This document shows, one piece after another, positions 3,874 through 30,989 of a DNA stretch of 64,000 nt. The position numbers were made by a program, and so were the translations under genes. Below the pieces are notes generated by a model. It did not search any database. It saw only the letters and a program-made list of their open reading frames with translations, and had not been told where the DNA came from. Source of the DNA: Edaphobacter aggregans. GTDB lineage: Bacteria > Acidobacteriota > Terriglobia > Terriglobales > Acidobacteriaceae. The DNA lies in NCBI GenBank assembly GCA_022736715.1, contig DZDJ01000012.1, forward strand, positions 1-64,000, in the 5' to 3' direction. Positions within the stretch are counted from its first letter, which is position 1, and each line of letters opens with the position of its first letter.

Positions 3874-3991
3874 TATAGCGGTTTTCCAGTTGGTGTAGAG
3901 GGAACGTGATGCCTTGAAATGGCTTTTTTCTCAAGAAAAAGCCATCCTGCATATTTCTGGAAACTCCACGAAAACTGGAGAACCGCTATAG
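3874..3991. repeat. Dispersed nested-palindromic repeat, family 1, copy A
   Basis: Starts TATAGCGGTTTTCCAGTT, ends AACTGGAGAACCGCTATA, central GGCTTTTTTCTCAAGAAAAAGCC hairpin; matches copies at 7453 and 30878. Confidence 0.9.
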
Positions 3992-4073
3992 AAGTCCCCC
4001 AAACCGCAGGTGCTTCCACGTCTGAAACAGATGGCACGAATACAGCGGGAATTATTGGCAGCGATATAGAGAA

Positions 4074-4119
4074 AAGCCAATGCCCTGCGGCGGTGGCCCC
4101 CACTGCAGGGCATTGGCTT
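4074..4119 (-). terminator. Hairpin terminator of the 4121-4954 gene
   Basis: AAGCCAATGCCCTGC....GCAGGGCATTGGCTT inverted repeat directly after the stop. Confidence 0.75.
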
Positions 4120-4120
4120 G

Positions 4121-4954
4121 TTATTGCTGGTTCCAGAAGGCGGGAGCGGCGGCCTTCCATTGGTCAGAGACGTAGCTCATCTTCGGATTGAAGGCAAAGA
4201 GGTTAGTCTGGGTGGACTCAAGGCAGGCCGCAGCCAGATCTGCTGCGGCTTTCCGGTCGCTCTCGCTCATTACTGCCTTAAGATGCTCCGAATCGCCCAT
4301 GCTCCGGTCCACTTCGGCCAGAGATTTCATGGGCGTGATGATGATGTAGACTCCACCGTTGTTCGCTCCATACATGCTCTCAAAGGTGGCCCAGTGCGCT
4401 GTGGGAGAGGCCTTTTCATAGGCGCTCTGGTAGATCTTGACGAGCGCATCCCAGTCCTTCTGGTGGCCGGGGCGAACCACGACCATGGAGATTTCAAAGT
4501 ATCGCATTTCGGCAATTTTCACGGCAGCGCGCAGGCTGTAGTCCTTCCGGTAGACAAAAGCACTGGTCCCATATTTGCTGAGCAGTTCTCCGTCCGCGGC
4601 ACTGGCGCTGTCCAACGCCGCAGACAAGGTTGCATCCTTGTGCATGGCCAGGTTGTCCTTCTCCCAGGCCTCAAAGGAATCGTAGGCAATGAAAAACAGC
4701 GAGCGCGCCGGGCCGGTCAGCGAGTCTGCTGCAAAGTAGTGCGTTGGCCATTTGGCGTTTGTCAGGGCCTGCACAAAGACGCTTTCCGTTTTTTCGTGCA
4801 TGCTGGCGGTTTTACCCGGCTTCAGATACTCGCGGACGATGACCATTACCTTGGGCGGTGGCGTTGTTCCGGTGGGTGCTTCCTGTGCGGATGCGTTGGG
4901 GGTAGCTGCGCAGATGCTGCACAGCACCAGAGAAAGAGCAATCAGGTTTTTCAT
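4121..4954 (-). CDS. Secreted hypothetical protein
   Basis: Start re-set to MKNLIALSLVLCSICAATPNASAQ (signal peptide); no family recognised. Confidence 0.75.
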   Translation of the reverse strand: MKNLIALSLVLCSICAATPNASAQEAPTGTTPPPKVMVIVREYLKPGKTASMHEKTESVFVQALTNAKWPTHYFAADSLTGPARSLFFIAYDSFEAWEKDNLAMHKDATLSAALDSASAADGELLSKYGTSAFVYRKDYSLRAAVKIAEMRYFEISMVVVRPGHQKDWDALVKIYQSAYEKASPTAHWATFESMYGANNGGVYIIITPMKSLAEVDRSMGDSEHLKAVMSESDRKAAADLAAACLESTQTNLFAFNPKMSYVSDQWKAAAPAFWNQQ

Positions 4955-5319
4955 GGCTGCTTTGCCTCCTGGGCAAACGGGATGAAGCCGGTTTCTGCAA
5001 AGAAACGTAGCGGAAAGAAGCATCAGGAAGATGGCAGGCCAATATCGGCAGGGACTGGGGAAACGGGCGCAGGGCAACACCAGTGCAGACTTTCATTCTC
5101 GACACCTTCTGCTTTTCCGGGAGAGCAGGGGTACCGCCATTCCCGGAATCAGGAGAACGTCCTCCTGACCACCAGGGATTGAATTGGCGCAAAACTGAAA
5201 AAGCTCCGTGCGGGATGCAAGCATGAGCCAAAAACGGCTAATTATACAATATAAGTAAAGTATACTTTAACTAAATTTGCATTTTAGTTCGTTTTTGAGT
5301 TTCTCCCGTCTATTTCGCG

Positions 5320-6669
5320 CTACCCTTTCGCCAGATACACAAAGCGCAGCGCAAACAGGATCGCCAGCAGATACAGCATCCAGTCCTGTTTGCGGAAGCG
5401 GCCGCTCAGGACTTGCAGCAGTGCATACGACGTCATGCCAAAGCTGAGGCCGTTGGCAATGGAGTAGGTCAGCGGAATGGTGACCAGCGTAAGAAAGGCA
5501 GGAATCGCCACCAGCGGATTGCTCCATTCAATGTCGCTGACCGAGGCCAGCATCAGGCCGCCCACAATGATCAGTGCCGGAGAGGTGGCAGCCGAAGGAA
5601 TAGCGCCCACCAGCGGAGCCACAAACAGCGCGCACAGAAAGAGGAAGCCCGTCACAATCGCCGTCACTCCCGTGCGTCCGCCCGCCGCTACGCCCGCGCT
5701 GGACTCCACATAGCTGCACACCGTGCTGGTGCCCACCAGTGACCCGGCAATGGTGGCCGTGGCATCGGCAAAAAAGATGCGGCTCAGGCGCGGAATCGTG
5801 TGGTCCGCCTCAATCAGCCCGGCCTTCTGCGTGACGGCAACCAGCGTGCCGATATTGTCGAACAGATCGACAAAAAGAAATACGAAGATGATCTCAAAAA
5901 GACCCACATGGACAGCGCTGCGCAGATCCAGCTTGAAGGTGGTGGCCGTAATCTCCACCAGGCGATAGCTCTCTGGATGCCAGTGCACCTGGCCCAAAAT
6001 GTATCCCGTCAGCGTGGTGCCCAGAATGCCGATCAGCATGGAGGCGCGCACGCGAAAGACCTGCAACACCGCAATCAGCATCAGCCCGAAAAGCGCCAGT
6101 GCCGTCTGTGGATTGCGCAGGTTGCCCAGCCCCACCAGCGTCGCCGGATTGGCCACGATAATGCCCGCGTTGCGCAGCCCTATGAACGCGATAAACAGCC
6201 CCACCCCGCCCGCCAGCGCTGCGTGCAACTGATGCGGAATGGCGCCGACCAGCATCTGCCGGATGCCACCAAAGGTGAGCAGCAGAAAAATCACGCCGGA
6301 GATGAAAACCGCACCCAGCGCCGTCTGCCACGGCACTCCCATCCCCTGCACCACGGAATAGGTGAAGTACGCATTCAGCCCCATGCCCGGAGCCATGGCA
6401 ATGGGATACTTCGCCAGGGCGCCCATCAAAAAACTGCCCAGCGCGGCGGAAAAACACGTGGCCGCCGTCACCGCGGCAATCGGCATTCCGGTTTCGTGCA
6501 GGATGGAGGGGTTCACGAAGACGATGTACGCCATCGTGATGAAGGTCGTCAGCCCGGCCAGCACCTCCGTGCGCCAGGTGGTGCCAAGAGCGGCAAATTC
6601 AAAGTACTGCTCCAGGGCAGCAACAAGGCCGCTCTGTTTTTTTCGGGTCATCGTGGCATTGGTCGGCAT
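5320..6669 (-). CDS. NCS2 family permease (AzgA-like purine/guanine/hypoxanthine transporter)
   Basis: 449 aa; AGLTTFITMAYIVFVNPSIL, APGMGLNAYFTYSVV, DNIGTLVAVTQKAGL. Confidence 0.92.
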   Translation of the reverse strand: MPTNATMTRKKQSGLVAALEQYFEFAALGTTWRTEVLAGLTTFITMAYIVFVNPSILHETGMPIAAVTAATCFSAALGSFLMGALAKYPIAMAPGMGLNAYFTYSVVQGMGVPWQTALGAVFISGVIFLLLTFGGIRQMLVGAIPHQLHAALAGGVGLFIAFIGLRNAGIIVANPATLVGLGNLRNPQTALALFGLMLIAVLQVFRVRASMLIGILGTTLTGYILGQVHWHPESYRLVEITATTFKLDLRSAVHVGLFEIIFVFLFVDLFDNIGTLVAVTQKAGLIEADHTIPRLSRIFFADATATIAGSLVGTSTVCSYVESSAGVAAGGRTGVTAIVTGFLFLCALFVAPLVGAIPSAATSPALIIVGGLMLASVSDIEWSNPLVAIPAFLTLVTIPLTYSIANGLSFGMTSYALLQVLSGRFRKQDWMLYLLAILFALRFVYLAKG

Positions 6670-6777
6670 TGGTTATGGGTGCGTTGAATGTTATGTTGAA
6701 AGCAAGGGCCGTGATGGCTAGTCTACACAGGGCACGGCGGAATTGCCGACAGAAAATCCAACCAGTCTGGAAGAAAT

Positions 6778-7314
6778 ATGCAGCCAAACCCGGAGTCCAC
6801 AGTGAAATCTGCCCTGACGGCCGGCCAGATCAAGGAACTGCTTCATCTTGTGCCCCATCCGTGCGAAGGCGGCTGGTTCGTGCGCACCTATGAGTCAGGC
6901 GAAATGCTTGCGCCAGCCGCACTTGATGCGCGCTACAACGGTCCGCGCAGAACAGGCACCGCAATCTATTACCTGCTGGAGCCGGACACCTTCTCCGAAA
7001 TGCACCTGCTGCAGTCCGATGAGATTTTCCACTTCTACCTGGGCGACCCGGTGGAACTGGTGCAACTGCTGCCCGACGGCAGCGGAACCATCACACTGCT
7101 GGGCAACGATCTGGCAGCCGGTCAAACGCCGCAGGCGGTAGTGCCCCGGCAGGTGTGGCAAGGATCCCGGCTGGTTCGCGGCGGCCGTTTTGCTCTGCTG
7201 GGCTGCACCGTGGCTCCCGGTTTTGAGTTTGCCGACTACGCCAGCGGCACCCGCGACGAACTTTGCGCCCGCTGGCCTGCATACCGGGAGCAGATTCTTC
7301 AATTGACCCGGTAA
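6778..7314 (+). CDS. Cupin domain protein (DUF985-like)
   Basis: HPCEGGWFVRTYESG, TAIYYLLEPDTFSEMHLLQSDEIFHFYLGDPVELVQLLPDG. Confidence 0.88.
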   Translation: MQPNPESTVKSALTAGQIKELLHLVPHPCEGGWFVRTYESGEMLAPAALDARYNGPRRTGTAIYYLLEPDTFSEMHLLQSDEIFHFYLGDPVELVQLLPDGSGTITLLGNDLAAGQTPQAVVPRQVWQGSRLVRGGRFALLGCTVAPGFEFADYASGTRDELCARWPAYREQILQLTR

Positions 7315-7452
7315 GCTGCGCAGCTCATCTTATAAGACCAACGGGGCCGACAAGCTCTTCCTCAGAGCCTGTTCACGATCTTCTGAGTAGAAGAACCAGG
7401 AAGGCAAGGTGGTTGCGTCCTTGGTTGGATCGGGCCTCGCCAACCGATTTTT

Positions 7453-7569
7453 TATAGCGGTTCTCCAGTTTTCGTGGAGTTTCCAGGAATATGCAGGACG
7501 GCTTTTTCTTGAGAAAAAAGCCGGTTCAGGGCATCACGTTCCCTCTACACCAACTGGAAAACCGCTATA
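7453..7569. repeat. Dispersed nested-palindromic repeat, family 1, copy B (inverted relative to copy A)
   Basis: TATAGCGGTTCTCCAGTT ... GGCTTTTTCTTGAGAAAAAAGCC ... AACTGGAAAACCGCTATA. Confidence 0.9.
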
Positions 7570-7741
7570 AGGCCCGCTCCAGAACGCTGATACCGTCCGA
7601 ACCGGACCCGCTCCACCTGGCAAAGTACGAATGCACCATGCGCCACTTGGGAAATCCATCGGGAAGCATACGCCACTGGCAGCCGCTCTTGAGCAGGTAC
7701 GACACTGCATTGAATACTTTGAGAATATAGAGCACTACGGC

Positions 7742-9010
7742 CTACTTCAGCAGCATCACCAGGATGCGGCCGTCGGAATGAAAGCTGCCGCCGGTGGCGG
7801 TTTTGCCGGAGGAGAACGGGTCGGCGGGCAGCACGTAGGCGGCGCTGACGATGTTGCCGGCGGACTGGAAGCTGTGCAGGATGAAGTCGCGCTCCTGGTC
7901 CACGTCCGGATCAATGTGGTGGGTGATGCCGTCATTCCTCTGGTCGCGCTCAAAGCCGTTGTCGTGCGTGGAAGAGCCGACCCAGAGCGGCCTGCCATCG
8001 ATCACCTGGCTGGTCTTCCAGATGCGCAGATGATGGCGGATGGCGGCCACCTCCAGCGCATTGCCGCGGGCAAAGGCGTAGTCCTGCGGGCGTCCGAAGA
8101 GGTAGAGCGTGCTCATGGGCATGTCCAGATAGGTCTTGTGCTGCAGCACATCCATCAGGCCATGCAGAACAGCGTCCTGCGTGGTCTTGTCCGTCTGCTG
8201 GTAGCCGGCATTGTCAAGGGCCTGCAGTACCTGCTCCTGCATGCCGATCAGCGCAAAGTTCACCATGTCGCCGGGGTGGCCCTGCTCATCGCTGACGCGC
8301 CGGGGAATATCGGCAAAGGTCTGCGCGCTGACGAGCGTGCTGACCCCGGTTGGCGGCGCGGTGAGGATTTTGGCGTCGGCTTTGGCGGTGAATTTCAGCT
8401 TGAGTTTGTAACTGCCGGTGCAGCTTTCACCTGTTCCCAGATTGATGTGCAGAAAGAGATGGCCATCGGTGGGCACGGTCAGGTTGCTCTTGTCGCCGAT
8501 GAGGAAGGGAACTGCTGCGGCGCTGTCTCCGATGCGGCCCACCAGAGCGCCGCTGTTGGCGTTATTCAGGATGAACTGGCGCAGCAGGTCTTTCCATCCC
8601 AGGGCAAGCCCGGCAGGACCGGTTTTACGGCCGTCGGCCAGGGAGATGGTGCCGCCGGTGGAGAAGCTGAGCTTGTCGCCGACGAAAAGGGAGACACCGG
8701 TGTCCATCCAGTCATCGCCTTCCACTTTGAAGCTGTAGGAGGATTTGCGGTTCTTGAGGACAGACGGAGTGATGGCAGGGCCGGAAGACGGGATGGCCTC
8801 CACCTGTGGCGTCCGGCCCTCTGGTGTGACAGTGGTCGCCGGAGTTGCAGTTGACGGGGCTGTGGCAGGCATCTGCAGAGCCGCCGCAGGGTGGATGGAA
8901 AGCGCAAGCGCAACGAGTGGCACCATCCACAGGCATCGCCAGGGCCGCCGGGTGACCTTCTGGAGACGTACCACAAAAGTGTAGGCGAAGTCGTTCACGT
9001 TAGAACCCAT
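7742..9010 (-). CDS. Secreted protein with PA-IL/LecA-like beta domain and LssY C-terminal-like domain
   Basis: Start re-set to MGSNVNDFAYT; YSFKVEGDDWMDTGVSLFVGDKLSFSTGGTI; HHLRIWKTSQVIDGRPLWVGSSTHDNGFERDQRNDGITHHIDPDVDQERDF. Confidence 0.75.
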   Translation of the reverse strand: MGSNVNDFAYTFVVRLQKVTRRPWRCLWMVPLVALALSIHPAAALQMPATAPSTATPATTVTPEGRTPQVEAIPSSGPAITPSVLKNRKSSYSFKVEGDDWMDTGVSLFVGDKLSFSTGGTISLADGRKTGPAGLALGWKDLLRQFILNNANSGALVGRIGDSAAAVPFLIGDKSNLTVPTDGHLFLHINLGTGESCTGSYKLKLKFTAKADAKILTAPPTGVSTLVSAQTFADIPRRVSDEQGHPGDMVNFALIGMQEQVLQALDNAGYQQTDKTTQDAVLHGLMDVLQHKTYLDMPMSTLYLFGRPQDYAFARGNALEVAAIRHHLRIWKTSQVIDGRPLWVGSSTHDNGFERDQRNDGITHHIDPDVDQERDFILHSFQSAGNIVSAAYVLPADPFSSGKTATGGSFHSDGRILVMLLK

Positions 9011-9116
9011 TTTGCATGATTCGTTAGTATGATGCTTATGTATCCCACTTGTTGGACGTAAACGCACGGCAGGCAGCTTCAGGGGAGCATTGTGGTTCTG
9101 GCAGCACATAAAACCG

Positions 9117-9857
9117 ATGGTACAGATCTTCAACAAAACGAAGCAGGTACTGGCAGCCGCGGCCGCGGTTGCTCTTTGCGGGCTGGTATCGGGCTGTACG
9201 AACATTACCGGAAGCAGAAGCCTGTCGCAGGTGCGGATCATCAACGCCTCTCCGGATGCGCCGGGCATGGACGTTTATGAAGGCTCCGATGTGATTGCCT
9301 ACAACCTGGGCTTTGGCACGGTTACGTCCTATGTGCCGATTATGCCGGGAACCAAGACAGTCTCAATGGACACGGCAGGCACCAGACAGCAACTGGTGAG
9401 TGCGACGGCGCTGTTTGGCACGTCCAGGCAGTACACCGTGCTGGTTTCCAATGTTGCCGCCGATATACAGGAGCAGATCCTGACGGACCAGAGCTCGGCC
9501 GCGCCCACCGGTGAGATTGCGGTGCGCTTTATTGATGAAGCCACGCAGATTGGCGGAGTGGACATTTACATGGTCCCCAGTGGTTCCAGGCTGGCCGATG
9601 CCAATCCGGTGCTGACCGATGTGACCTTCCCCACCATTGGCGGCTATCTGGATGTGCCGACGGGGAGCTACTCCATTGTGGTGACGGCGACCGGCACTTC
9701 CACGGCGCTCTACACCGGCAACACGGTGAGCTATGCGGCGGGGGCAGCGCGCACCTTTGTGCTGCTGGATCAGCAGATTCTGAATAAGCCTGCGGTGAAT
9801 GTGATCACGGCAGACGATTATGACTCGCCTACGGTAGCGCAATCCTCCGCACAATAA
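9117..9857 (+). CDS. DUF4397 domain lipoprotein
   Basis: Lipobox LVSGC; VRIINASPDAPGMDVYEGSDVIAYNLGFGTVTSYVPIMPGTKTV. Confidence 0.85.
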   Translation: MVQIFNKTKQVLAAAAAVALCGLVSGCTNITGSRSLSQVRIINASPDAPGMDVYEGSDVIAYNLGFGTVTSYVPIMPGTKTVSMDTAGTRQQLVSATALFGTSRQYTVLVSNVAADIQEQILTDQSSAAPTGEIAVRFIDEATQIGGVDIYMVPSGSRLADANPVLTDVTFPTIGGYLDVPTGSYSIVVTATGTSTALYTGNTVSYAAGAARTFVLLDQQILNKPAVNVITADDYDSPTVAQSSAQ

Positions 9858-10010
9858 ATCAGCATTCTGACTGACCCGCGTTGCGTTGCAGGGTTGCGGA
9901 TGTGGGCTGAAATTTATTTTGCGCTCATTGCGCAACCTTCCCGTCTATGTCAGGGTTCATCTCGCTGTACCCGGCCTGGAACAGGCCGCGGTACCAGAGG
10001 GGAACGAACT

Positions 10011-10358
10011 ATGAACGTTGCACGTTTTGCATTGACCGCAATTTTTTCTCTCGGAAGCACGGCCCTTTATGCGCAGAGCGTTGCACCCGCTGCTCCGGCT
10101 GCTCCTCAGGCAACGATCCAGCAGCGCAAAGGGGACCAGCAGCAGCGCATTGGGCAGGGGGTCCGCAGCGGCCAGCTGACAGCTGGGGAAACGCATCATC
10201 TGGAGCACCGGGAACGGGCGATCAATCACGAAGAGCACAATATGCGGGCCCGGAACAATGGGCAACTGACCAAACATGACCGCCACACCATTCGCCGCCA
10301 GCAGAATCGGGAATCGCACCGCATTTATCGCGACAAGCACAACGCCAGGGTGCGGTAG
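10011..10358 (+). CDS. Small secreted Arg/His/Gln-rich protein with internal repeat
   Basis: Signal peptide MNVARFALTAIFSLGSTALYAQ; two GQLT-x-x-(E/D)-x-H modules. Confidence 0.75.
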   Translation: MNVARFALTAIFSLGSTALYAQSVAPAAPAAPQATIQQRKGDQQQRIGQGVRSGQLTAGETHHLEHRERAINHEEHNMRARNNGQLTKHDRHTIRRQQNRESHRIYRDKHNARVR

Positions 10359-10382
10359 CTGAGTCGTTCCGCTGTTAAACAG

Positions 10383-10418
10383 AAACGACCCTCACCAGAG
10401 GACTGGTGAGGGTCGTTT
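10383..10418. terminator. Bidirectional terminator between convergent genes
   Basis: AAACGACCCTCACCAG-AGGA-CTGGTGAGGGTCGTTT, perfect 16-bp stem. Confidence 0.9.
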
Positions 10419-10431
10419 GCAATGCGCGGCT

Positions 10432-11859
10432 CTAGTAGCGGTAATGCTCTGATTTGAAGGGGCCTTCCACATCTACGCCGAGATATTCGGCTTGCTTTGG
10501 AGAAAGTGTCGTCAGTCTGACGCCGATCTTTGCCAGATGCAGGCGGGCGACCTCCTCGTCCAGTTTTTTCGGCAGCGTGTAGACGTCGATGGAGTAGACG
10601 TCCTTGTTCTTCCACAGATCAATCTGCGCCAGTGTCTGGTTGGCGAAGCTGTTGCTCATCACAAAGCTGGGATGCCCGGTGGCGCAACCCAGATTCACCA
10701 GGCGGCCTTCGGCCAGCACAAAGATGCTGCGGCCGCCGGCGAAGGTGTATTGGTCCACCTGCGGCTTGATGTTGATCCGGGTGGCCGTCCTGTCTTCATT
10801 CAGGCGGTCCATCTGGATTTCATTGTCGAAGTGGCCAATGTTGCACACAATGGCCTGGTCCTTCATGGCCTTCATGTGCTCCAGCGTGATGATGTCCACG
10901 TTGCCGGTGCAGGTGACGTAGATGTCGCCACGGCCCAGCGTCTCTTCGATTGTGGTCACCTCAAAGCCTTCCATGGCGGCCTGCAGCGCGTTGATGGGGT
11001 CAATCTCCGTCACAATGACGCGAGCGCCCATGCCGCGCAGCGAATGGGCAGATCCTTTGCCCACATCGCCATAGCCGCAGATGACGGCCACTTTGCCGGC
11101 CACCATCACGTCAGTTGCGCGCTTGATGCCGTCGGCCAGCGACTCGCGGCAGCCGTAGAGGTTGTCGAACTTGGACTTGGTGACGGAGTCGTTCACGTTG
11201 ATGGCCGGAACCAGCAGCTTGCCCTGCTCCTTCATCTTGTACAGGCGATGCACGCCGGTTGTGGTTTCTTCGGAAACGCCGCGCCACTCCTTCACCACGT
11301 TGTGCCAGTGCTGCGGATTTTCCGCGTGCACCTTCTTCAGCAGGTCCTTGATGACCTGCTCTTCCTGGTTCGAGGAAGGCGTGTTCACCCAGTTGTCGCC
11401 ATCTTCCAGCTCATGGCCCTTGTGGATGAGCAGAGTCACGTCGCCGCCATCGTCCACCACCAGCTGCGGGCCCTTGCCGTTGTGGTTCAGCGCCTGGTAA
11501 GTGCACCACCAGTATTCCTCCAGCGTTTCGCCCTTCCAGGCAAAAACGGGCACGCCCGCAGCGGCAATGGCGGCGGCGGCGTGGTCCTGCGTGGAGAAGA
11601 TGTTGCAGCTGGCCCAGCGAACGTCTGCACCCAGGGCAATCAGCGTTTCAATCAGCACAGCGGTCTGGATCGTCATGTGCAGCGAACCGGTGACGCGGAC
11701 GCCCGCCAGAGGCTTTTCTGCCGCGTACTTGTTGCGGATCGCCATCAGGCCGGGCATTTCATGCTCAGCAATGCCGATCTCCTTGCGTCCCCAGTCGGCG
11801 AGCGACAGGTCGGCTACCTTGTTGTCTGTTGCGATGCGGTCCAGTGCTGCTGTTGCCAT
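10432..11859 (-). CDS. ahcY: Adenosylhomocysteinase
   Basis: Start re-set to [62 protein letters not shown]-terminal KSEHYRY. Confidence 0.97.
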
Positions 11860-12132
11860 GTGGATTGACCTCGTTATGCGTGGTTTGCCCCGGCGGCGCT
11901 TCTGGTCGAAGCGGCCAGCGGAGCTTTGCTCAACGTTCAGGATACCACTCAAAACACGCGGTTTTACGCCAACTTTTGCAGGTGCATCCAGCGGCTTTTG
12001 CGGACATTGAAGCGCAGATTTTCGCGGTTAAATGGTCCGCAGAAATTGTCTTCGGGCACAAAAGACAGGTCGAACCGATGGCTGGCAATGATGCTGGAGC
12101 CAGCGCAACGGTAGTGGTCGTTTCGAAGCCCT

Positions 12133-12945
12133 TCAGCTCAATTTGGCGTGGACCCGATCGCCCTTGGCGGCCCGTTCTGCAATGCGCTTGGTTGCGTAGT
12201 CGTTCCATTGTTCGTAGGTCTGCTCATAGGTGCCGTCTTGTTCGGCAAAGCGACGAGAGCGCACCCGCTCGACGAGAATCTCTCCGCTGGGTGGCGGATT
12301 CTTGAGAAGCGCCATGGTCTCGCTGATGAAGTCGGCCAGTGGCATCGCATTCGGATCTTCGGCCTGAAAGCGTCCGGTGAGCTCGGTTTGAACGTAGGGT
12401 GGAGCAATCTCCAGTACTTCTACCGACGTGTCGCGCAGCTGGTATCGCAGAGATTGGGACCAGGAGTGAATAGCAGCCTTGGTAGCACAATAGGACGGAT
12501 TGGGATAAATGGGCATGAAGGCGAGACCGGAAGACACGGTCATGATGGTCGCTTTCGGTTGGGCGAGCAGCCGCGGCATGAGGGCCGCGGTGATACGAAA
12601 GGTACCGAGAAGGTTGATGGCCACGGTCTGCTCGGCGAGCGCCAGGTCCTGAGCGCCTGTCTTCAAGTCTTCGGATTTCATGATGCCGGCATTGTTAATC
12701 AGAACGTTGAGGGTGGGGAATTCTGTCTTAACCTGAGCGCCAAAGCGCTGCGTGTCGTCAAGGTTTTCGACATCGACCAGGAGAAAGCGCATGCCCGGAT
12801 TAGCGCGGGCGGTGTCTTCCAGGACTGATTGACGGCGCCCGGCAAGGATGACCTGATTGCCATCCCGATGAAAAGCCTCCGCCAGGCCGCGGCCGATTCC
12901 AGTGCCGCCACCGGTAATGAGAATGGTATTGCCAGTCGGGTTCAT
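12133..12945 (-). CDS. SDR family oxidoreductase (DltE-like)
   Basis: LITGGGTGIGRGLAEAF; NVLINNAGIM; YCATKAAIHS. Confidence 0.9.
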   Translation of the reverse strand: MNPTGNTILITGGGTGIGRGLAEAFHRDGNQVILAGRRQSVLEDTARANPGMRFLLVDVENLDDTQRFGAQVKTEFPTLNVLINNAGIMKSEDLKTGAQDLALAEQTVAINLLGTFRITAALMPRLLAQPKATIMTVSSGLAFMPIYPNPSYCATKAAIHSWSQSLRYQLRDTSVEVLEIAPPYVQTELTGRFQAEDPNAMPLADFISETMALLKNPPPSGEILVERVRSRRFAEQDGTYEQTYEQWNDYATKRIAERAAKGDRVHAKLS

Positions 12946-13079
12946 GGAATGCTCCTCTGCATAACTTTGATTTGGCACTGTATGGGATGACGTGTGCCGG
13001 GGTCAGGATGCAGATTGTCGCCAGCAGCTTCCTTGAGGAACCGGTCCAGTCAGTTGTTATAGAGGATGGAGAAGAATAT

Positions 13080-13154
13080 TGGAGGCGCGGGTCGGGATCG
13101 AACCGACGCATAAAGGTTTTGCAGACCTCTCCCTTACCACTTGGGTACCGCGCC
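13080..13154 (-). tRNA. tRNA-Cys (anticodon GCA), CCA encoded
   Basis: GGCGCGG acceptor, AGGT-CTGCAAA-ACCT anticodon arm, GTCGGTTCGATCCCGAC, discriminator U. Confidence 0.95.
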
Positions 13155-13248
13155 TGACGGGATGGAACCGGATGATACGGTCTTTGCAGCACCACCTGTT
13201 GAAAGCCCGGTTCTTGAGTGGAAAGTGTACCGCAGACGGGCCTTCGTT

Positions 13249-13323
13249 TGGAGCGGGAGACGGGACTTGAACCCGCGACCCTCGCCTTGGCAAGGCGATG
13301 CTCTACCACTGAGCTACTCCCGC
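13249..13323 (-). tRNA. tRNA-Gly (anticodon GCC), CCA encoded
   Basis: GCGGGAG acceptor, CGCCT-TGCCA-AGGCG region with GCC anticodon, GCGGGTTCAAGTCCCGT, CTCCCGC. Confidence 0.95.
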
Positions 13324-14852: not shown

Positions 14853-14883
14853 AATGATTAACCTGCCTTAATAAAGCATTTTC

Positions 14884-14996
14884 ACGGATGCTGTGGTCTG
14901 CCCGACGAGCGTTCGGGGCCGTTTTCATTGAAGGAGAACGGCGTCAGCGACCGTGGCTGCTTACACCTTCAGTGAAAAATGCTCGGGCGCGCAATG
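14884..14996 (-). promoter_or_regulatory. Candidate structured 5' leader of the class III aminotransferase
   Basis: Minus strand TTTTTCACTGAAGG...CCTTCAATGAAAA and outer GCCCGAGC...GCTCGTCGGGC complementary blocks. Confidence 0.35.
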
Positions 14997-22183: not shown

Positions 22184-22202
22184 GGAACTTTTTCCTCCGT
22201 AG

Positions 22203-25200
22203 TTACGCATGCTGTGGACCTGCCTCGTCCGGGGACGCAGTTGCGGACTGTGTGTGCTTGCGTCCGTGAATCAATCCAAAGACCGAAGGCACAAAAACCA
22301 GGGTGGCGACGGTGGCGCACAGCAGGCCACCGATGACGGCGCGGCCCAGCGGCGCGTTCTGCTCGCCGCCATCGCCAAGGCCAAGCGCCATGGGAATCAT
22401 ACCGATGATCATGGCCAGCGCCGTCATGACGACCGGGCGGAAGCGGGTCGCACCGGCCTCTATTGCGGCCTTCACTGCATCGCCGTGCTGCTCCAGCCGG
22501 ATCTTGGCAAAGGAGACCACCAGAATACTGTTGGCTGTGGCCACGCCCATGCACATGATGGCGCCCATTAGTGCTGGAACGCTGAGCGCCGTGTGCGTGA
22601 GGAACAGGAACAGCACAATGCCTGCCAGTGCCGCGGGCAATGCTGTGATGATGATGAAGGGATCAACCCAGGACTGGAAGTTGACCACGATCAGCAGGTA
22701 CACCAGTACGATGGCAAAGAGCAGGCCGCCCAGCAGACCGAGATACGAGGTGCGCATGGTGGCCAGCTGTCCGCGAATGGAGACGAAGGTGCCGCGCGGC
22801 AGCAGGTGTTTGTCTGCATCCACAATGCGCTGTACGTCGCGGCCCACGCCGCCCAGGTCACGCCCCTGCACTGCGCCGTAGATGTCGACGACGCGACGGA
22901 TGTTGTAGTGCGAAACCACGGCCATCTCTTCGGAGCGGCCAATGGTGGCCAGGTTCGCCAGAATGCCCGGCGATTTGGCATTGGCGGAATTGATGGGGAT
23001 GTTCTGAATGTCGCTGATGGATTGCATCTTGTACTGTGGTGTCTGCACCGTCATGGGGTAGTTGACGCCGTTCCGCCAGTTGAGGAAGAACATGGGACTG
23101 GTCTGGAAGCTGCTGCTGAGCGTATTCAGAACGCTGGTGGTGACGTCCTTTTCGGTATAGCCGGCCTGCGAGGCTTTGGTGCGGTTCACGTCAATGTTGA
23201 ACGTGGGGTAGTTGAAGGGCTGCTGGATGCGCAGGTCGGTCAGACCTGGCACCTGGCGCAACTGCGCCAGCATCTTCACGGCCAGAGCGTGGCTGGCGAC
23301 CGCGTTGTTGCCTTCAAGCTGGATGTCGATCGGCGCAGGCAGTCCAAAGTTCAGAATTTGCGTGGTGATGTCGGCTGGCAGAAAGTAGAACGTGGTTCCG
23401 GGAAACTTCCGCGGCAGTTCCTCGCGCAGAATGCGGATGTAGTCAGCTGTAGGGTGATGGTCGGGCTGCAGCGAGACCATGATGTCCGCATCGGCGGCGC
23501 CAATGGTGCCGTCGGTGCTGTGCATGGTGTTCATCGGGCTGTAGGGCAGGCCAATGTTGTCCAGAATATTGTGCAGTTCGTTGGCGGGAATCTTCTGACG
23601 GATGACCTGCTCCACCAGATCGCTGAGGCGCGCGGTCTCTTCAATGCGCAGGCCGGTGGCTCCGCGCACGTGCAGGATGAACTCTCCGCTGTCGGTCTTG
23701 GGAAAAAAGTCCTGCCCTAGCCACGGAGCCAGCAGAAAAGCGCAGAGGCAGACCAGAAGAAAGAGTGGAACGAATGTCTTCCGCCGGAGCACGAGTTTCT
23801 CCAGCAAGCCTTCATAGCTGCCGCGTGTGCGCTCAAAACCGCGCTCAAAGGAGCGCTGCATGCGGCCGAAGATGTTGGCAGGCGCTTTGTGGTGCTCCTT
23901 GACGCGCAGCAGATACATGGCCAGCGTAGGCACCAGCGTCCGCGAGAACACGTACGAGGCCAGCATGGCGAAGACTACCGCCTCTGCCAGCGGCACAAAC
24001 AGGTAGCGGGCGACGCCGTTGAGGAAAAACATGGGCAGAAACACAATACAGATGCAGAGGGTGGAGACCAGTGCCGGAACGGCAATCTGCGCCGCGCCTT
24101 CCAGTATGGCATCGTACAGCGGATAGCCCTCTTCCAGAAAACGCTCGATGTTTTCGATGGTCACGGTTGCGTCGTCCACCAGAATACCGACCGCCAGCGC
24201 TAGGCCGCCGAGCGTCATGATGTTGATGGTCTCGCCCAGGAAACTCAGGATGATGACCGAAGTGAGAATAGAGAGCGGAATGGAGACGGCAATGATGAGC
24301 GTACTGCGCCAACTGCCCAGGAAGAGCAGAATCATCAGTGCCGTCAGCCCAGCGGCCAGTACGGCCTCGCGGATTACACCGGTAATGGCTCCGCGTACAA
24401 AGACGGACTGGTCATTGAGCGGAACAATTTTGAGCGCCGGCGGAACAATGGAGGACACGCGCGGCAGCATCTTGCGGATGCCGCTGACAACATCCAGCGT
24501 GGAAGCGTTGCCGGCCTTCAAAATACTGACCAGCACACCGCGCTGCCCGTTCTGGCGCACAATATTGGTCTGGAACTGGAAACCGTTGCTGACGGTGGCG
24601 ATGTCGCGCACATAAACCGTAGCGCCATTCACCTGCTTTACCGGAATACTGCCCACCTTATCCAGCGTGCGCGGCGCACCGTTGGTCAATACGTCGTATT
24701 CGCTCTCGCCGATCTTGATGGTTCCCGAAGGCTGCACCAAATATTGGTTGTTCAGGGCAGACAACAGGTCCGATGGCGCAATGCCCTTGGACTGCATGCG
24801 CCTGGGCATGACGCTGATGCTGATCTGCCGCTGCTTGCCGCCATATGGATACGGAACGACTGCGCCCGGAACAGTGACCAGTTGGGGACGGACGAAGTTC
24901 ATGCCGTAGTCGTTCAATTGCGCTTCGGACAGGCCCTTGCCGGAGAGCGAAAGTTGCAGAATTGGAACGCTCGATGCGCTGAAGTTGATGATTTCCGGCG
25001 GCAGCGTTCCTTGTGGTAACTGGCGCAGCATGAACTGCGATGTGGCCGTGACCTGCGCATTGGCCGTGTCCAGGCTGGCGCCGGGCTGCAGGAAGATCTT
25101 AATGACGACGACGCCGTTGTAGGTGGTGGACTCAATGTGCTGGATGTTGTCGACCAGCGTCGTCAGCGCCTTTTCATACGGCGTGGTCAGGCGGCCTTCA

Positions 25201-25376
25201 AGCTCTTCGGGATTCAGCCCGGTGTACGTCCAGGCCACGGAGACGACAGGGATGTTGATGTTCGGAAAGATGTCTGTTGGCGTGCGGCTGATGACCACCG
25301 GACTGAGCAGCAGAATGAGCAGCGCCAGAACGATGAAGGTGTATGGACGGGTGAGTGCGACTTTGACAATCCACAT
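22203..25376 (-). CDS. RND efflux permease (AcrB/MdtB-type)
   Basis: 1057 aa; RTPTDIFPNINIPVVSVAWTYTGLNPEELEGR, GGLALAVGILVDDATVTIENI. Confidence 0.96.
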   Translation of the reverse strand: MWIVKVALTRPYTFIVLALLILLLSPVVISRTPTDIFPNINIPVVSVAWTYTGLNPEELEGRLTTPYEKALTTLVDNIQHIESTTYNGVVVIKIFLQPGASLDTANAQVTATSQFMLRQLPQGTLPPEIINFSASSVPILQLSLSGKGLSEAQLNDYGMNFVRPQLVTVPGAVVPYPYGGKQRQISISVMPRRMQSKGIAPSDLLSALNNQYLVQPSGTIKIGESEYDVLTNGAPRTLDKVGSIPVKQVNGATVYVRDIATVSNGFQFQTNIVRQNGQRGVLVSILKAGNASTLDVVSGIRKMLPRVSSIVPPALKIVPLNDQSVFVRGAITGVIREAVLAAGLTALMILLFLGSWRSTLIIAVSIPLSILTSVIILSFLGETINIMTLGGLALAVGILVDDATVTIENIERFLEEGYPLYDAILEGAAQIAVPALVSTLCICIVFLPMFFLNGVARYLFVPLAEAVVFAMLASYVFSRTLVPTLAMYLLRVKEHHKAPANIFGRMQRSFERGFERTRGSYEGLLEKLVLRRKTFVPLFLLVCLCAFLLAPWLGQDFFPKTDSGEFILHVRGATGLRIEETARLSDLVEQVIRQKIPANELHNILDNIGLPYSPMNTMHSTDGTIGAADADIMVSLQPDHHPTADYIRILREELPRKFPGTTFYFLPADITTQILNFGLPAPIDIQLEGNNAVASHALAVKMLAQLRQVPGLTDLRIQQPFNYPTFNIDVNRTKASQAGYTEKDVTTSVLNTLSSSFQTSPMFFLNWRNGVNYPMTVQTPQYKMQSISDIQNIPINSANAKSPGILANLATIGRSEEMAVVSHYNIRRVVDIYGAVQGRDLGGVGRDVQRIVDADKHLLPRGTFVSIRGQLATMRTSYLGLLGGLLFAIVLVYLLIVVNFQSWVDPFIIITALPAALAGIVLFLFLTHTALSVPALMGAIMCMGVATANSILVVSFAKIRLEQHGDAVKAAIEAGATRFRPVVMTALAMIIGMIPMALGLGDGGEQNAPLGRAVIGGLLCATVATLVFVPSVFGLIHGRKHTQSATASPDEAGPQHA

Positions 25377-25504
25377 GCTGGGATTACAACCTCCACCTGC
25401 TCTTAAGCTGTGTTGAGAATGGATCTATATCGTAAGGACGAAGTCCCATAAACAATAGATTCAGTATTTCAGCTAAAGGTAGCGCAGTTTGATGTGATGA
25501 TTTA

Positions 25505-25521
25505 TATCGGAAAAACCGATA
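25505..25521. promoter_or_regulatory. Candidate LysR operator (palindromic T-N11-A)
   Basis: TATCGG-AAAAA-CCGATA between divergent lysR and RND operon. Confidence 0.6.
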
Positions 25522-25553
25522 GAATGCCGTCATAGATGTTTTGAGGTACCAGT

Positions 25554-26450
25554 ATGGAACTACGCCACCTCCGTTATTTCTGTGCTGTGGCCGATCAACA
25601 GGGCTTCAGTCGGGCGGCACGGGCGCTGCATGTGTCGCAATCGGCCATCAGCGAGCAGATTGCCGACCTGGAAGACGAGATCGGAGTCCCATTGCTGACG
25701 CGGCAGCAGCACAAGGTCGGACTCACCCCTCATGGCCGGATTTTTCTGACAGAGGCCAGAAACGTTCTGGAGAATGCGCAACAGGCAGTCACCATGGCTC
25801 AACGGTCCTTGCGCGGCGAGGTGGGTGAGCTGACCATTGCGTTTTTTACCGGAGGGATGGGAACCGCTCTTCCCAGGCTTATCCGAAATTTTCGGCAGAA
25901 ACATCCCGAAGTCCGCGTTTCACTGCTGGAGATGACCTCAACCATGCAATCGCGCGCCTTGCTGGAAGGCACCATCGACGTGGCCTTTACCCGGCCGCTG
26001 GAGCCGCATCTGGACCGCGAGATGTGCTCGGAGACGCTGCGGCTCGATCCGCTGTTTGCCGTGCTGCCGAAGGACCATCCGCTGGCTTCCGGGCCGGTGG
26101 ACATCCGGTCGCTCTCCAGCGAGCGGTTCATTCTTTGCGGGCGCGATACCTCCTCCGTACTGCATGACAAGATTTTTTCGCTCTGCACGGAGGCAGGCAT
26201 CGCGCCGGAGATTGCCTCGGTTTCGCCGGTGTGGTCCACCATTACCACGCTGGTGCAGGCGGGCGAGGGCATTGCGATTCTGCCCATCAACATGCAGCAA
26301 TTTGCCACGAATGACCTGGTCTTTTGCCCATTGACGAACGCACATGCCGTGATTGAACTGGTGATGGCCTGGTCGCCGCTGCGGGAGACCGGTATTCTGT
26401 GCAGTTTTCTGAATCTGGTGCGTGCCAGCCGCGAACGCGGTGCCGTGTAG
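25554..26450 (+). CDS. LysR family transcriptional regulator
   Basis: MELRHLRYFCAVADQQGFSRAARALHVSQSAISEQIADLEDEIGVPLL. Confidence 0.95.
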   Translation: MELRHLRYFCAVADQQGFSRAARALHVSQSAISEQIADLEDEIGVPLLTRQQHKVGLTPHGRIFLTEARNVLENAQQAVTMAQRSLRGEVGELTIAFFTGGMGTALPRLIRNFRQKHPEVRVSLLEMTSTMQSRALLEGTIDVAFTRPLEPHLDREMCSETLRLDPLFAVLPKDHPLASGPVDIRSLSSERFILCGRDTSSVLHDKIFSLCTEAGIAPEIASVSPVWSTITTLVQAGEGIAILPINMQQFATNDLVFCPLTNAHAVIELVMAWSPLRETGILCSFLNLVRASRERGAV

Positions 26451-26498
26451 CGCCGTGGTCTGCTTTTGCCATAATCGTCCGTGCGGATGAGGATTTTT

Positions 26499-26658
26499 CC
26501 GGAGATGGACGGGGTGCCGCTCCATTCCTTCCAGGCGGCCGCGGAGAGGTCTTCATGGGGTAAATTGTAGCGCAGCGGGCCATGCTGTCCTCAACCCAGC
26601 CGTGCTCCCCCGGCATGTAATGCCAGACGTGGTGATGCGCATCCATAACCACTGCCAT
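26499..26658 (-). pseudogene. Frameshifted 5' remnant of an amidohydrolase (Amidohydro_2/lactonase-like)
   Basis: MAVVMDAHHHVWHYMPGEHGWVEDSMA, then a +1 shift gives PLRYNLPHEDLSAAAWKEWSGT. Confidence 0.55.
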
Positions 26659-26696
26659 GAGTGCGAATCCCGGCGTGTGGATGTTAGCATCCTGCT

Positions 26697-27524
26697 ATGC
26701 AGTCCAGCACGCAACCTCTGGTAGAAGCACGGCATTTGGTGAAGGAGTATCCCCGCGGCAAGGGAGGATTTGCCTTGCCGGGACGCGGTGCACAGAGCGT
26801 GCGCGTGGTGGAGGACGTTTCATTTTCCATTTTTCGCGGCGAAACGCTGGGGCTGGTGGGGGAATCCGGCTCTGGCAAGAGCACGGTGGCGCGGATGGTG
26901 CTGCGCCTGATCGAGACCACTTCCGGCGAAGTACGCTTCGATGGGCAGAATTTGCTGGCTGCCAGTCCACAGCAAATGCGCCGCTTGCGGCAGCGGATGC
27001 AGATTGTCTTTCAGGACCCTTACGCGGCGCTGAATCCACGCATGCGTGTGCGCGAGATTGTTGCCGAGCCGCTGATGATTCACCGCAAAGAAATGAAGAA
27101 CGGGTTGGCTGCGAAGGATTCGCAGCGGCGCGTGGTGGAGTTGTTGCAGGCGGTGGGGCTGGACGAGTCGGCGCTGGGGCGGTATCCGCATGAGTTTTCC
27201 GGCGGACAGCGGCAGCGCATCAACATTGCAAGGGCGCTGGCGCTGCAGCCGGAGTTTCTGGTGCTGGATGAGCCGGTTTCGGCGTTGGATGTGAGCGTTG
27301 GGGCGCAGATCATCAACCTGTTGCAGCAGTTGCAGCGGCAGTTCGGGCTGACGTATCTGTTCATTTCGCATTCCATGCCGCTGGTGCGCTATTTGTGCAC
27401 GCGGGTTGCGGTGATGCAGCGCGGCCGGCTGGTGGAGATTGGCGAAAGCGAGCAGGTGTGCGGGCGCCCGCAGCAGGAGTACACCCGGCAACTGATTGCG
27501 GCCACGCCAGAGCTGGCGGTTTAG
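26697..27524 (+). CDS. Orphan oligopeptide-type ABC transporter ATPase (OppF/DppF-like)
   Basis: GESGSGKSTVARMVLRLIE, FQDPYAALNPRMRV, FSGGQRQRINIARALALQPEFLVLDEPVSALDVSV. Confidence 0.93.
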   Translation: MQSSTQPLVEARHLVKEYPRGKGGFALPGRGAQSVRVVEDVSFSIFRGETLGLVGESGSGKSTVARMVLRLIETTSGEVRFDGQNLLAASPQQMRRLRQRMQIVFQDPYAALNPRMRVREIVAEPLMIHRKEMKNGLAAKDSQRRVVELLQAVGLDESALGRYPHEFSGGQRQRINIARALALQPEFLVLDEPVSALDVSVGAQIINLLQQLQRQFGLTYLFISHSMPLVRYLCTRVAVMQRGRLVEIGESEQVCGRPQQEYTRQLIAATPELAV

Positions 27525-27650
27525 AGCATAAGCAGAACTGCTGTGTGGTGTGCGGCTTTTGCAGGGAGAGTGCCTGGTCGCCGCTCTCTGTTGGTCGCCG
27601 CCGACTCAGAGCCCGCGGCTTCGTCTTACGCCATCTCTGCTTTTGCTTTA
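27524..27650. repeat. Dispersed palindromic repeat, family 2, copy A
   Basis: GCAGGGAGAGTGCCTGGTCGCCGCTCTCTGTTGGTCGCC...TCTCTGCTTTTGCTTTAG; aligns with 30006-30131 and 35552-35678. Confidence 0.8.
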
Positions 27651-27692
27651 GCGTGCAGCCTTCCGTTCGCGGACAACGATACAATTAAGACA

Positions 27693-28472
27693 ATGCACGC
27701 CTTTCCTTTTTATGAATATCTCTGGCTGGGCTTTGCCGCATTTCTTGCCGGAATCGTGAATGCGGTCGCCGGCGGCGGAGGTTTTCTTGCCTTCCCGAGC
27801 TTGCTGCATGTGGGCGTGCCTCCGGTGGAGGCCAATGCCACCAACACGGTGGCGTTGTGGCCGGGGCAGTTCACTTCTATTTTCGCCTACTATCAGGACG
27901 TCAAGACGAATCTGCGCTTGGTGCTGCCGGTCATGGTGGCGGCCTTGATTGGTGGCGTGGCTGGCGCATGGACGCTGCTGCACACCAGCCAGAGCAGCTT
28001 TATGCGCCTGGTTCCGTGGCTGTTTCTGCTGGGGGCAACAATGTTTTCCATCAGCGGGCCGGTCTCGCGCTGGATTCGCCGCAGAAATGCGTCCAACACG
28101 GAAGAGAAGCAGATTCCGGTGCTGCCGCTGGCCTTGTGCCTGACGCTGGTCTGCTTTTACATCGGCTATTTTGGTGCGGGCGCTGGCTTCATTACCATGA
28201 CGGTGCTGTCGTTGTTTGGCGTGGCGCGCCTGGTAGAGGTGAATGCACTGAAGGTGATCACCACGACTGTGGCCAACGGGGTTGCGGTGATTACGTTCAT
28301 TCTGGACCGCGCCGTGGTATGGCACTACTGCATTGTGATGATGGTGGCCTGCGCCATTGGCGGTTACCTGGGAGCACGCTACGCGCGGGGCATGAGCGAC
28401 CGCGTGCTGCGTCCTGCCATTATTCTGTTTGGTTTTGCTGTCGCTGCATATTTCTTCTGGAAGCAGGCATAA
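27693..28472 (+). CDS. TauE/SafE family sulfite exporter-like permease
   Basis: AAFLAGIVNAVAGGGGFLAFPSLL...ANATNTVALWPGQ; YFGAGAGFITMTVLSLFG. Confidence 0.92.
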   Translation: MHAFPFYEYLWLGFAAFLAGIVNAVAGGGGFLAFPSLLHVGVPPVEANATNTVALWPGQFTSIFAYYQDVKTNLRLVLPVMVAALIGGVAGAWTLLHTSQSSFMRLVPWLFLLGATMFSISGPVSRWIRRRNASNTEEKQIPVLPLALCLTLVCFYIGYFGAGAGFITMTVLSLFGVARLVEVNALKVITTTVANGVAVITFILDRAVVWHYCIVMMVACAIGGYLGARYARGMSDRVLRPAIILFGFAVAAYFFWKQA

Positions 28473-28477
28473 CAATC

Positions 28478-28756
28478 ATGCACCTCAGTCTGGTGGAGAT
28501 GATCGGCTTCGCAGCCGCCTTCTGCACAACCGTTTCCTTTGTGCCGCAACTGGTTCGCGTGCTGCAATTGCGTTCGGCGCGTGATATTTCGCTGGGTATG
28601 TTTCTGCTGTTTTCTCTGGGGGTCTTTCTCTGGCTGGTGTATGGGCTTTCGATTCATTCCATGCCGGTGATCGTGTCCAATGCGGTAACGCTGCTGCTCT
28701 CGGTGAGCATTTTGATTTTGAAGCTGCGTTTTGACCGTGCCAATCGCAGTCGTTAG
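28478..28756 (+). CDS. SemiSWEET/PQ-loop transporter
   Basis: MIGFAAAFCTTVSFVPQLVRVLQLRSARDISLGMFLLFSLGVFLWLVYG. Confidence 0.9.
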   Translation: MHLSLVEMIGFAAAFCTTVSFVPQLVRVLQLRSARDISLGMFLLFSLGVFLWLVYGLSIHSMPVIVSNAVTLLLSVSILILKLRFDRANRSR

Positions 28757-28826
28757 CGCAGAAGAGACGAATCGGAGACAATGGAGAGCAGGAAAGACAG
28801 CCGAACCTGGCTGTGAGTGAGTTGCG

Positions 28827-29264
28827 ATGAGTCATGAGGGAATCCGTTTTGTGAACGCGGAAGAAGCGCAGAAGGAGTCTGCGACGGAGCGCGATCTTCC
28901 ACGGGAAGCAACCGAGCCGGTGAAGGTGCGTGTGCATCAGACGGAAGGCACCGGGGTGGAGATTGAGTGGCGCGATGGCCATCGCAGCAACTGGACCTTC
29001 GCCTGGCTGCGGGACGCCTGTCCATGCGCCACCTGCCATGAAGAGCGGGAAGCCACCGGACGCAAACCGGGCCAGCACAAACCGAGGCCCGCGGAATTGC
29101 TGCCGATGTACCAGGCCCCGGCGCGACCCAGCGCCGTTTCTCCGGTAGGTCGCTATGCGTTGAAGTTTTCCTGGAATGACGGACACGAGAGCGGCATCTA
29201 CTCGTGGGACTATCTGCGCCGCGTTTGCCAGTGCGAGCAGTGCCAACGGCAGAATGCTGGCTGA
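28827..29264 (+). CDS. DUF971 domain protein
   Basis: GVEIEWRDGHRSNWTFAWLRDACPCATCHEE; YALKFSWNDGHESGIYSWDYLRRVC. Confidence 0.85.
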   Translation: MSHEGIRFVNAEEAQKESATERDLPREATEPVKVRVHQTEGTGVEIEWRDGHRSNWTFAWLRDACPCATCHEEREATGRKPGQHKPRPAELLPMYQAPARPSAVSPVGRYALKFSWNDGHESGIYSWDYLRRVCQCEQCQRQNAG

Positions 29265-29746
29265 ACGGTTACCGGTGCAGACAGATAACCGCCGTCGGGG
29301 GTGTGGGGAAGTGGGAAGAGCGTAGCGATTTCCACTTCCCCACACCCCTTGTTGTTTGCGGTCAGCCACGCTGCTGGTGCGGGTGGCCTGTAGCCCAGCG
29401 ACGAGTGCGGCCTGACCGTGTTGTAGTGGACGCGCCAGCGTTCAGCCAGCACGCGCAGTTCTTTCATCGAGTAAAAGATTTCTCCGTTCAGAAACTCATC
29501 CCGCAGCTTGCTGTTGAAGCTCTCGCAGTAGCCGTTCTCCCACGGGCTACCTGGTTCGATGTACAACGTATTTGCTCCCGTACCTGCCAGCCATTTTCGC
29601 AGCTCTTTGGCCACGAACTCCGGGCCATTGTCCGAACGCAGGTGTTCCGGAATTCCTTTCATCACCATCACGTCGGCCAACGCTTCGATCACTCTGGCAC
29701 TGCACCATCGTCGTTCAGCACGGATCAGCAGGCACTCCCGCGTGTG
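29210..29746 (-). mobile_element. 3' fragment of an IS3-family orfB transposase
   Basis: VIEALADVMVMKGIPEHLRSDNGPEFVAKELRKWL...YIEPGSPWENGYCESFNSKLRDEFLNGEIFYSMKEL...HYNTVRPHSSLGYRPPAP; in frame upstream to HTRECLLIRAERRW only. Confidence 0.9.
29297..29348. repeat. 17-bp inverted repeat hairpin at the IS3 remnant end
   Basis: GGGGTGTGGGGAAGTGG...CCACTTCCCCACACCCC. Confidence 0.85.
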
Positions 29747-29805
29747 CGGGGGGGCCTTGATCGAGAGCTACAAAGTATCGACGGCCAAGGGTCTATCCCC
29801 GCGGG

Positions 29806-29829
29806 GCTCCCGTGAAGTACCTGTCCCAT
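29806..29829 (-). mobile_element. Possible first codons of an IS481-type transposase
   Basis: AGAAGGAGGCACT-ATG followed by MGQVLHGS, then diverges. Confidence 0.4.
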
Positions 29830-30005
29830 AGTGCCTCCTTCTGGCGTTCAGAAAAGTATGCACCATCTATCTCTGGGACCAAACAGCCGGGCCTGATTGC
29901 TCTTGGCCGACAGCCGCGATGGAAGCTGGCATCAGCGATCACGTTTTGGAAATCGCAGAATTGGTTGCGCTGCTTAAATTAAACTTGACCAGTTCCCGCT
30001 TGCGG

Positions 30006-30131
30006 CTAAAGCAAAAGCAGGGTTACTGTAAGGCATACACTTTTTTGCAGGGAGTGCCCGGCCGCCACTCCCTGCTGGTCGCGCCGGCTCCGGGCCTGCG
30101 GCTTCTCTTACTCTCGCTGCTTCTGTTTTAG
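30006..30131. repeat. Dispersed palindromic repeat, family 2, copy B (both termini visible)
   Basis: CTAAAGCAAAAGCAGGG...CTGCTTCTGTTTTAG terminal inverted repeat; internal GCAGGGAGTGCCCGGCCGCCACTCCCTGC. Confidence 0.85.
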
Positions 30132-30222
30132 GGCAGTTCGCAGATTAAATAGAAACAGCTTTCGCTACTTACGCCACCATTACGGCTCACAGAGCAGAAC
30201 AGGTGGAGAAAGGAACATTTGC

Positions 30223-30624
30223 ATGAAAACCAGGTTCCTGGTAACGGCCATTCTCGCTATTTCTGCTGTCCCCAATATGGCACACGCCCAGACCGCTCCG
30301 GCTGCTAACCACATTTACTCTCATTCAGAATTGATGCGCCTGATTCGCACCGCCCATACTCCGGACGAATTCAATGCGCTTGCGGACTACTTCGATCGAA
30401 AACATGAGCAAAATACCCAAAAGGCGAAGGACGAACAGACAGAGTTGAACCGCCGTCTCGCGGCCCCCTATCTTTCTCCAAAGTATCCAACTCCTGTAGA
30501 TACTGCGAGGAGACGCCTCCAGTATTACAAGGCAGAGGCGGAAGAATATGAGCATCGAGCGGATACATATCGACAAAAAGCAAAGGAAATGAGCGGCACG
30601 ACGCATTCACCGGACAGTCATTGA
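30223..30624 (+). CDS. Secreted hypothetical protein
   Basis: MKTRFLVTAILAISAVPNMAHAQ signal; coiled-coil-like rest. Confidence 0.7.
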   Translation: MKTRFLVTAILAISAVPNMAHAQTAPAANHIYSHSELMRLIRTAHTPDEFNALADYFDRKHEQNTQKAKDEQTELNRRLAAPYLSPKYPTPVDTARRRLQYYKAEAEEYEHRADTYRQKAKEMSGTTHSPDSH

Positions 30625-30877
30625 GTCTAAAGACGGGTCCCTCGTGTTTGCTATATACATAGGGTACGTGTCTTACCAGTCTCCCTGCTTTCTGCCGTGC
30701 CATCACACCAGGCCAATGGTTGCGGTGTCCTGATGGTTCTGCAGTGTGCCAGAGGCCCCGGACGGGAAGAATAAATGGTTCGCCAGTCGCGCCGTTGTTC
30801 CGCCGTCCCCATAAAACCTTTGCCAAACGTGTGTCGGAATGTGCCGGCCGACGCTGCCAGAGCTTGTGTTGTCCCGC

Positions 30878-30989
30878 TATAGCGGGACAACAGTTTTCGT
30901 GGAGTTTCCGGGGACATGCAGGACGGCTTTTTCTTGAGGAAAAGCCATTCAGGGCGTCACTTCCCTCTACACCAACTGGAAAACCGCTA
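30878..30989. repeat. Dispersed nested-palindromic repeat, family 1, copy C
   Basis: Shared TTTTCGTGGAGTTTCC..GACATGCAGGACGGCTTTTTCTTGAGGAAAAGCC..CCCTCTACACCAACTGGAAAACCGCTATA; left end lies in a 22-bp palindrome at 30869-30890. Confidence 0.88.

Follow-up and report, generated by a model that had tools for sequence, protein, structure and literature searches.

A TA-inserting miniature element with a conserved central hairpin and IS630-like ends in the Acidobacteriaceae

Our analysis indicates that the nested palindrome repeated between genes of the source genome is very probably a non-autonomous element (MITE) of the IS630/Tc1-mariner type, moved in trans by an IS630 transposase. In soil acidobacteria it has reached dozens or hundreds of sites. 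It has the features by which a MITE is recognised: it is short, non-coding and present in many copies, it carries terminal inverted repeats with IS630-like ends, and it inserts at TA. A MITE was among the readings offered by the initial annotation of this DNA, and it is supported here by duplication of the target TA, by paralogous empty sites and by the IS630-type ends. Unusually for a parasite of this sort, the best-kept part of the element is a small hairpin in its middle. The cores of MITEs are generally taken as passive leftovers.

Copies in the window, the genome and the family

We refer to the whole 64-kb stretch of DNA that was analysed as the window. The three repeats that the initial annotation had placed there are confirmed, with exact bounds 3874-3990 on the forward strand and 7453-7569 and 30878-30991 on the reverse strand. 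Copies 1 and 2 are full length, 117 bp each, and score 133.7 and 132.6 bits against our covariance model R1. Copy 1 has TA at both outer ends; its left terminal inverted repeat TATAGCGGTTTTCCAGTTGGTGTA (3874-3897, forward) includes the outer TA that is the target duplication, its central hairpin ATGGCTTTTTTCTCAAGAAAAAGCCAT (3919-3945, forward) includes the best conserved block of the family, and its right terminal inverted repeat reads inward as TATAGCGGTTCTCCAGTTTTCGTG (3967-3990, reverse). The earlier description of the terminal arms, the central hairpin and the asymmetric inner blocks holds, and gene calls bear out the intergenic position of all three copies, here between convergent genes. 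Copy 3, of 114 bp and 88.1 bits, has one arm rewritten from TATAGCGGTTCTCCAG to TATAGCGGGACAACAG; together with its flank, the altered arm makes up a perfect palindrome, GTTGTCCCGC-TATA-GCGGGACAAC. This 24-bp palindrome, GTTGTCCCGCTATAGCGGGACAAC, lies at about 30870-30893, and the change is what a template switch at a quasi-palindrome would be expected to produce. Folding z-scores are -6 to -7 for copies 1 and 2 and -2 to -4 for copy 3.

Two further members in the window were absent from the earlier list for this family, namely a decayed member of another subfamily, GAGCATTTTTCACTGAAGGTGTA ... ATCCGTGAAAATGCTTTA (14872-14986, reverse, E = 2.6e-6), and one assigned to a second subfamily that co-resides in the genome, TAAAGCAAAAGCAGAGATGGCGTA ... 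CAGTTCTGCTTATGCTCTA (27522-27650, reverse, E = 6.9e-5). The latter has a relative at 35553-35669 (forward), 76% identical to it and also a weak match to a second model, R2, and a partial relative at 30043-30130 (reverse), 80% identical over 94 bp. This second family, of repeats about 120-129 bp long and more diverged, shares the genome with the first and was also seen at loci L045, L054, L070 and L272. A fluoride riboswitch (RF01734, 42 bits) lies at 35879-35948 of the window.

More copies had been anticipated in the genome, a MAG of 349 contigs (G000), and there are many. Searching with the 18-bp arm at no more than 2 mismatches gave 70 forward and 76 reverse matches, 146 in all, as against 0 for the control, the same pattern reversed and uncomplemented. 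The full copies that were inspected are nearly all exactly 117 bp long and are about 97% identical, with a mean of 3.4 differences from the consensus. In the MAG JOPF013 the copies are 98% identical and 29 of 107 match the consensus exactly, while the three copies examined in genome G334 are all identical; because of these last two observations we conclude that the copies are recent and recently amplified. Several contigs of the source MAG end inside the element, which thus accounts for some of the contig breaks in MAGs. Arm matches that lacked a partner were considered as candidates for an autonomous copy in the source genome and rejected, being truncated or decayed MITEs or contig ends; at one bare arm (contig C126) no transposase adjoins. 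One copy (L054:922-1010) carries four tandem repeats of CCAGTTGGTGTAGAGGG within its left end.

The covariance-model search that the initial annotation had suggested finds the element across relatives. Model R1, built from 12 sequences and applied at a threshold of E <= 1e-4, had matches in 122 of 398 Acidobacteriaceae genomes, which belong to 21 of the 79 genera covered, and model R2, applied to a phylum-wide sample of 396 genomes, matched 19, all of them within Acidobacteriaceae; the element-bearing genomes named here are MAGs of that family. Element length is mostly 115-119 bp, with a few exceptions of 125-126 and 162-171 bp. The longer relatives of 162-171 bp were seen at L343 (genome G245), G271:C138 and G062:C36, and L343 has similar ends and a different interior. 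Acidobacteriaceae genomes thereby gain a repeat annotation that seems to have been missing so far.

Insertion at TA and gene context

That the element inserts at TA with a 2-bp duplication of the TA is well supported. Among 159 copies, 150 have the outer TA on either side, and it is kept although the adjoining dinucleotide of the repeat varies (TA followed by TAGCGG versus TA followed by CGGCGG); the target context is Y-TA-R in 153 of the 159. For the empty-site test the flanks of the element were joined with a single TA and compared against DNA of the source and its relatives. Since orthologous sites in JOPF013 are too diverged (about 65-80% in matched stretches), paralogous sites were used, and in the source genome these align to the joined flanks ungapped or nearly so. 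They comprise a duplicated gene that matches C145 (93% over 72 bp), the pair L010 and L030 (TTTTGCTTTAGG / TTTTGCTTTACC), L073 against window positions 37534-37582, and L072 against L076. In JOPF013 the joined flanks of L099 and L148 have counterparts in empty copies of other repeats, which bear one TA; those of L133 and L147 can be aligned to empty copies of a single repeat with no gap at the insertion point. Because the paralogous empty sites carry a single TA, insertion has duplicated it, and both the target-site duplication and the empty sites that had been named as checks on mobility are thus in hand.

Some landing sites are themselves repeats. The comparison of L010 with L030 places a copy of the element at the end of a second-family repeat, and JOPF013 has a further repeat, which spans about 110 bp or more around CCACCTTCGATTGAAATTGCAAAGGC and is a landing site for MITE copies (L099, L121, L132, L133, L147, L154 and L185). 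We also considered targeting of hairpin loops as a rule and rejected it, since stems around the target TA do not exceed in length those of YTAR sites close by (p = 0.17 and 0.49); a few cases (L014 and L060) are striking.

According to gene calls from a home-made caller, 25 of 46 intergenic copies in the source genome lie between convergent genes, where 18% would be expected from intergenic bases (p = 3e-8), as against a single copy between divergent genes (28% expected) and one more within a called gene. The pattern recurs in JOPF013, where 25 of 85 copies lie between convergent genes (19% expected, p = 0.014) and 8 between divergent ones (24% expected). Copies avoid genes, then, and cluster at gene 3' ends, which fits survival where promoters are not hit. 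Orientation with respect to tandem genes has no significant bias (13:7 and 19:33; p = 0.26 and 0.07), and context and orientation together make a strand-specific RNA role less likely.

A conserved hairpin at the centre

The apex of the central hairpin, TTTTC-N-N-CAAGAAAA, is near-invariant and, at 90%, more conserved than the terminal repeats. Against a pairwise identity of 0.90 at the apex, the outermost six bases reach 0.82 and 0.77, the arms about 0.65 and the inner flanks about 0.5. As a guard against selection by the model we picked 30 loci by the arm alone; the core is present in 29 of them, with an identity of 0.90 versus 0.66 in the arm. When 35 copies were aligned on one strand, 95% of the cells paired and 27 of 32 pairs had two-sided changes, with a covariation score, inflated by relatedness and taken from an alignment fitted to the structure, of 0.430 versus 0.169 when shuffled and at most 0.11 when slid. 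Both the arms and the central hairpin covary between subfamilies. Covariation of the outer arms is expected of any transposon whose two ends stay matched; the central hairpin lies outside the ends and covaries too, with U-A, G-C and A-U, for example, at one pair. Compensatory changes thus preserve the central hairpin, the inner flanks drift, and the 16-bp apex with its stem is the best conserved part over 21 genera and up to hundreds of copies per genome.

What might such a hairpin do? In the constant core, TTTTTC-NNCAA-GAAAAA, the distance from the T tract to the A tract is about one turn of the helix. We tentatively suggest that the hairpin may act as DNA, either as a phased T-tract/A-tract bend or as an extruded cruciform that lets the ends meet. 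With similar reserve, we propose a family-wide MITE lineage with a functional hairpin module that might be selected as structure more strongly than the transposase-binding ends are, and that might persist as the ends change to follow different IS630 transposases, so that the core would define the lineage. The job of a MITE core becomes testable here, whether it be to bend the DNA, to form a cruciform, to offer a site to a host factor or to work as RNA.

The mobilising enzyme, rival readings and known systems

The MITE end, TATAGCGGTTCTCCAATTGGTGTAGAG, follows the pattern TA-nAGC-N10-TTG-STGTA over about 24-27 bp. IS630 elements (DDE_3, PF13358) of the same class share this pattern and its spacing at L086, L190, L193, L203 and L206; the end in L190 is TAGAGCATTTCTCCTGTTACTGTA and that in L086, which is 1,032 bp long and has two reading frames that overlap, is TAGAGCAATTCTCCATATGCTGTATAG. 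An end matching the MITE end at >=16 of 22 positions was found at 26 of 60 IS630 loci, a count in which some loci overlap each other and L198 scores via a nearby MITE, versus 0 of 30 Y1 loci. Genome G409, with more than 200 arm matches, has IS630 remnants only, whose ends equal the MITE at 23-24 of 29 positions (TAGAGCATTTCTCCTATTGCTGTAGAGCA at 24); its fuller copy, L247, has lost the other end. In genus g63, TTCTCCTGAAGGT is common to the MITEs and an IS630. The search for a transposase with matching ends, proposed at the outset, thus brought up IS630 elements with such ends in relatives and none in the source MAG, a fragmented assembly, where the two DDE_3 matches both have unrelated ends and no end-matched IS630 was found. 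Five element-bearing genomes (G217, G297, G228, G377 and G066) have no DDE_3 match, so there the partner has been lost or another enzyme is at work; the partner IS of a MITE is often lost. For these two reasons, the source MAG and the five genomes, mobilisation in trans is something that we infer. In the mechanism that we propose, an IS630 transposase supplied in trans would recognise the ~24-27 bp ends and excise the 117-bp unit, and insertion into a Y-TA-R target would duplicate the TA. A bend or cruciform at the centre might bring the two ends of this short, stiff DNA together. Copies survive chiefly at the 3' ends of genes, above all where these converge.

The genomes that bear a recently amplified element and no detectable IS630 are also what one would expect if the mobiliser were a different DDE transposase that inserts at TA or YTAR, such as one of an IS5 subgroup, the likeness to IS630 ends being due to chance or ancestry. 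YTAR is a known IS5 target, and TA duplication is also known from some other IS groups. We nevertheless regard such an enzyme as improbable, given that IS630 elements of the same class agree with the MITE in the pattern of the ends, in spacing and in the duplication of TA, and that no further transposase with MITE-type ends was seen in a search that had IS5 outside its range. Somewhat less improbable, though still unlikely, is that the element is a structured RNA first (an sRNA, a 3'-end stabiliser or an RNase III site), mobile by accident, with selection acting on a transcribed hairpin. The strong covariation, the constant length across 21 genera and the enrichment at gene 3' ends would all suit an RNA, as would pair 47-71, which in the source copies is T-A, C-G or a T-G wobble and never C-A. 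Against it, the covariation of the outer arms is what any transposon with matched ends would show, the orientation to tandem genes is without significant bias, and Rfam had no match over the elements at the gathering score or at E <= 1. The structured intergenic RNA that the initial annotation had offered may thus be a secondary property of the element, given that the structure covaries, but neither a significant strand bias towards genes nor an Rfam match was found.

The same annotation's other alternative was a REP/BIME-like repeat, which on this reading would be moved as a single-stranded hairpin by a RAYT/TIRYT tyrosine transposase. The element is indeed palindromic, intergenic and of high copy number, and tyrosine transposases with flanking TIRs have been described from Acidobacteria (PMC3733652). 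We consider this reading most improbable: the source genome has no Y1_Tnp (PF01797) match, neither the element nor its end motif occurs at any of 30 Y1 loci of relatives, and the 117-bp unit begins TATAGCGG rather than with a 20-40 bp palindrome tagged GTAG or CGTC. The TA is duplicated in the MITE family, whereas target duplication is not normally seen after Y1 transposition.

We return to the IS630-type MITE, of which we found no mention among the papers searched on IS630 or MITEs in Acidobacteria. REP/BIME repeats and the TIRtrons of tyrosine transposases, the latter known in Acidobacteria (PMC3733652), are likewise palindromic and intergenic; the 117-bp element differs in having a TA duplication and no association with a tyrosine transposase. 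ISY100, of the IS630 family, has imperfect ends of ~24 bp, inserts at TA with TA duplication, and needs only 30 bp of each end for transposition (PMC2170065). The ends of our element fit this size and the TA duplication is alike, but ISY100-type ISs encode a transposase and the 117-bp element encodes none. Correia/NEMIS of Neisseria are TA-flanked, hairpin-forming repeats of ~105-155 bp, with TIRs and in high copy (PMC2229807). Our element resembles them in size, TA-flanked TIRs, hairpin and copy number; IHF and RNase III features are described for Correia/NEMIS. Their ends differ from those of the acidobacterial MITE. Closest in kind is RUP of pneumococcus, which is 107 bp long, has 108 copies, is intergenic and has a TA target and IS630-Spn1-like ends (PMC2229807). 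It is similar in size to our 117 bp and alike in intergenic position, TA target and IS630-family ends, while its sequence and host phylum are different, it has a named proposed partner in IS630-Spn1 where none was found in the source MAG, and we found no report for it of a core conserved across genera with covariation. The kind of element is already known, as the comparison with RUP makes clear; the lineage-wide, structure-conserved core is new.
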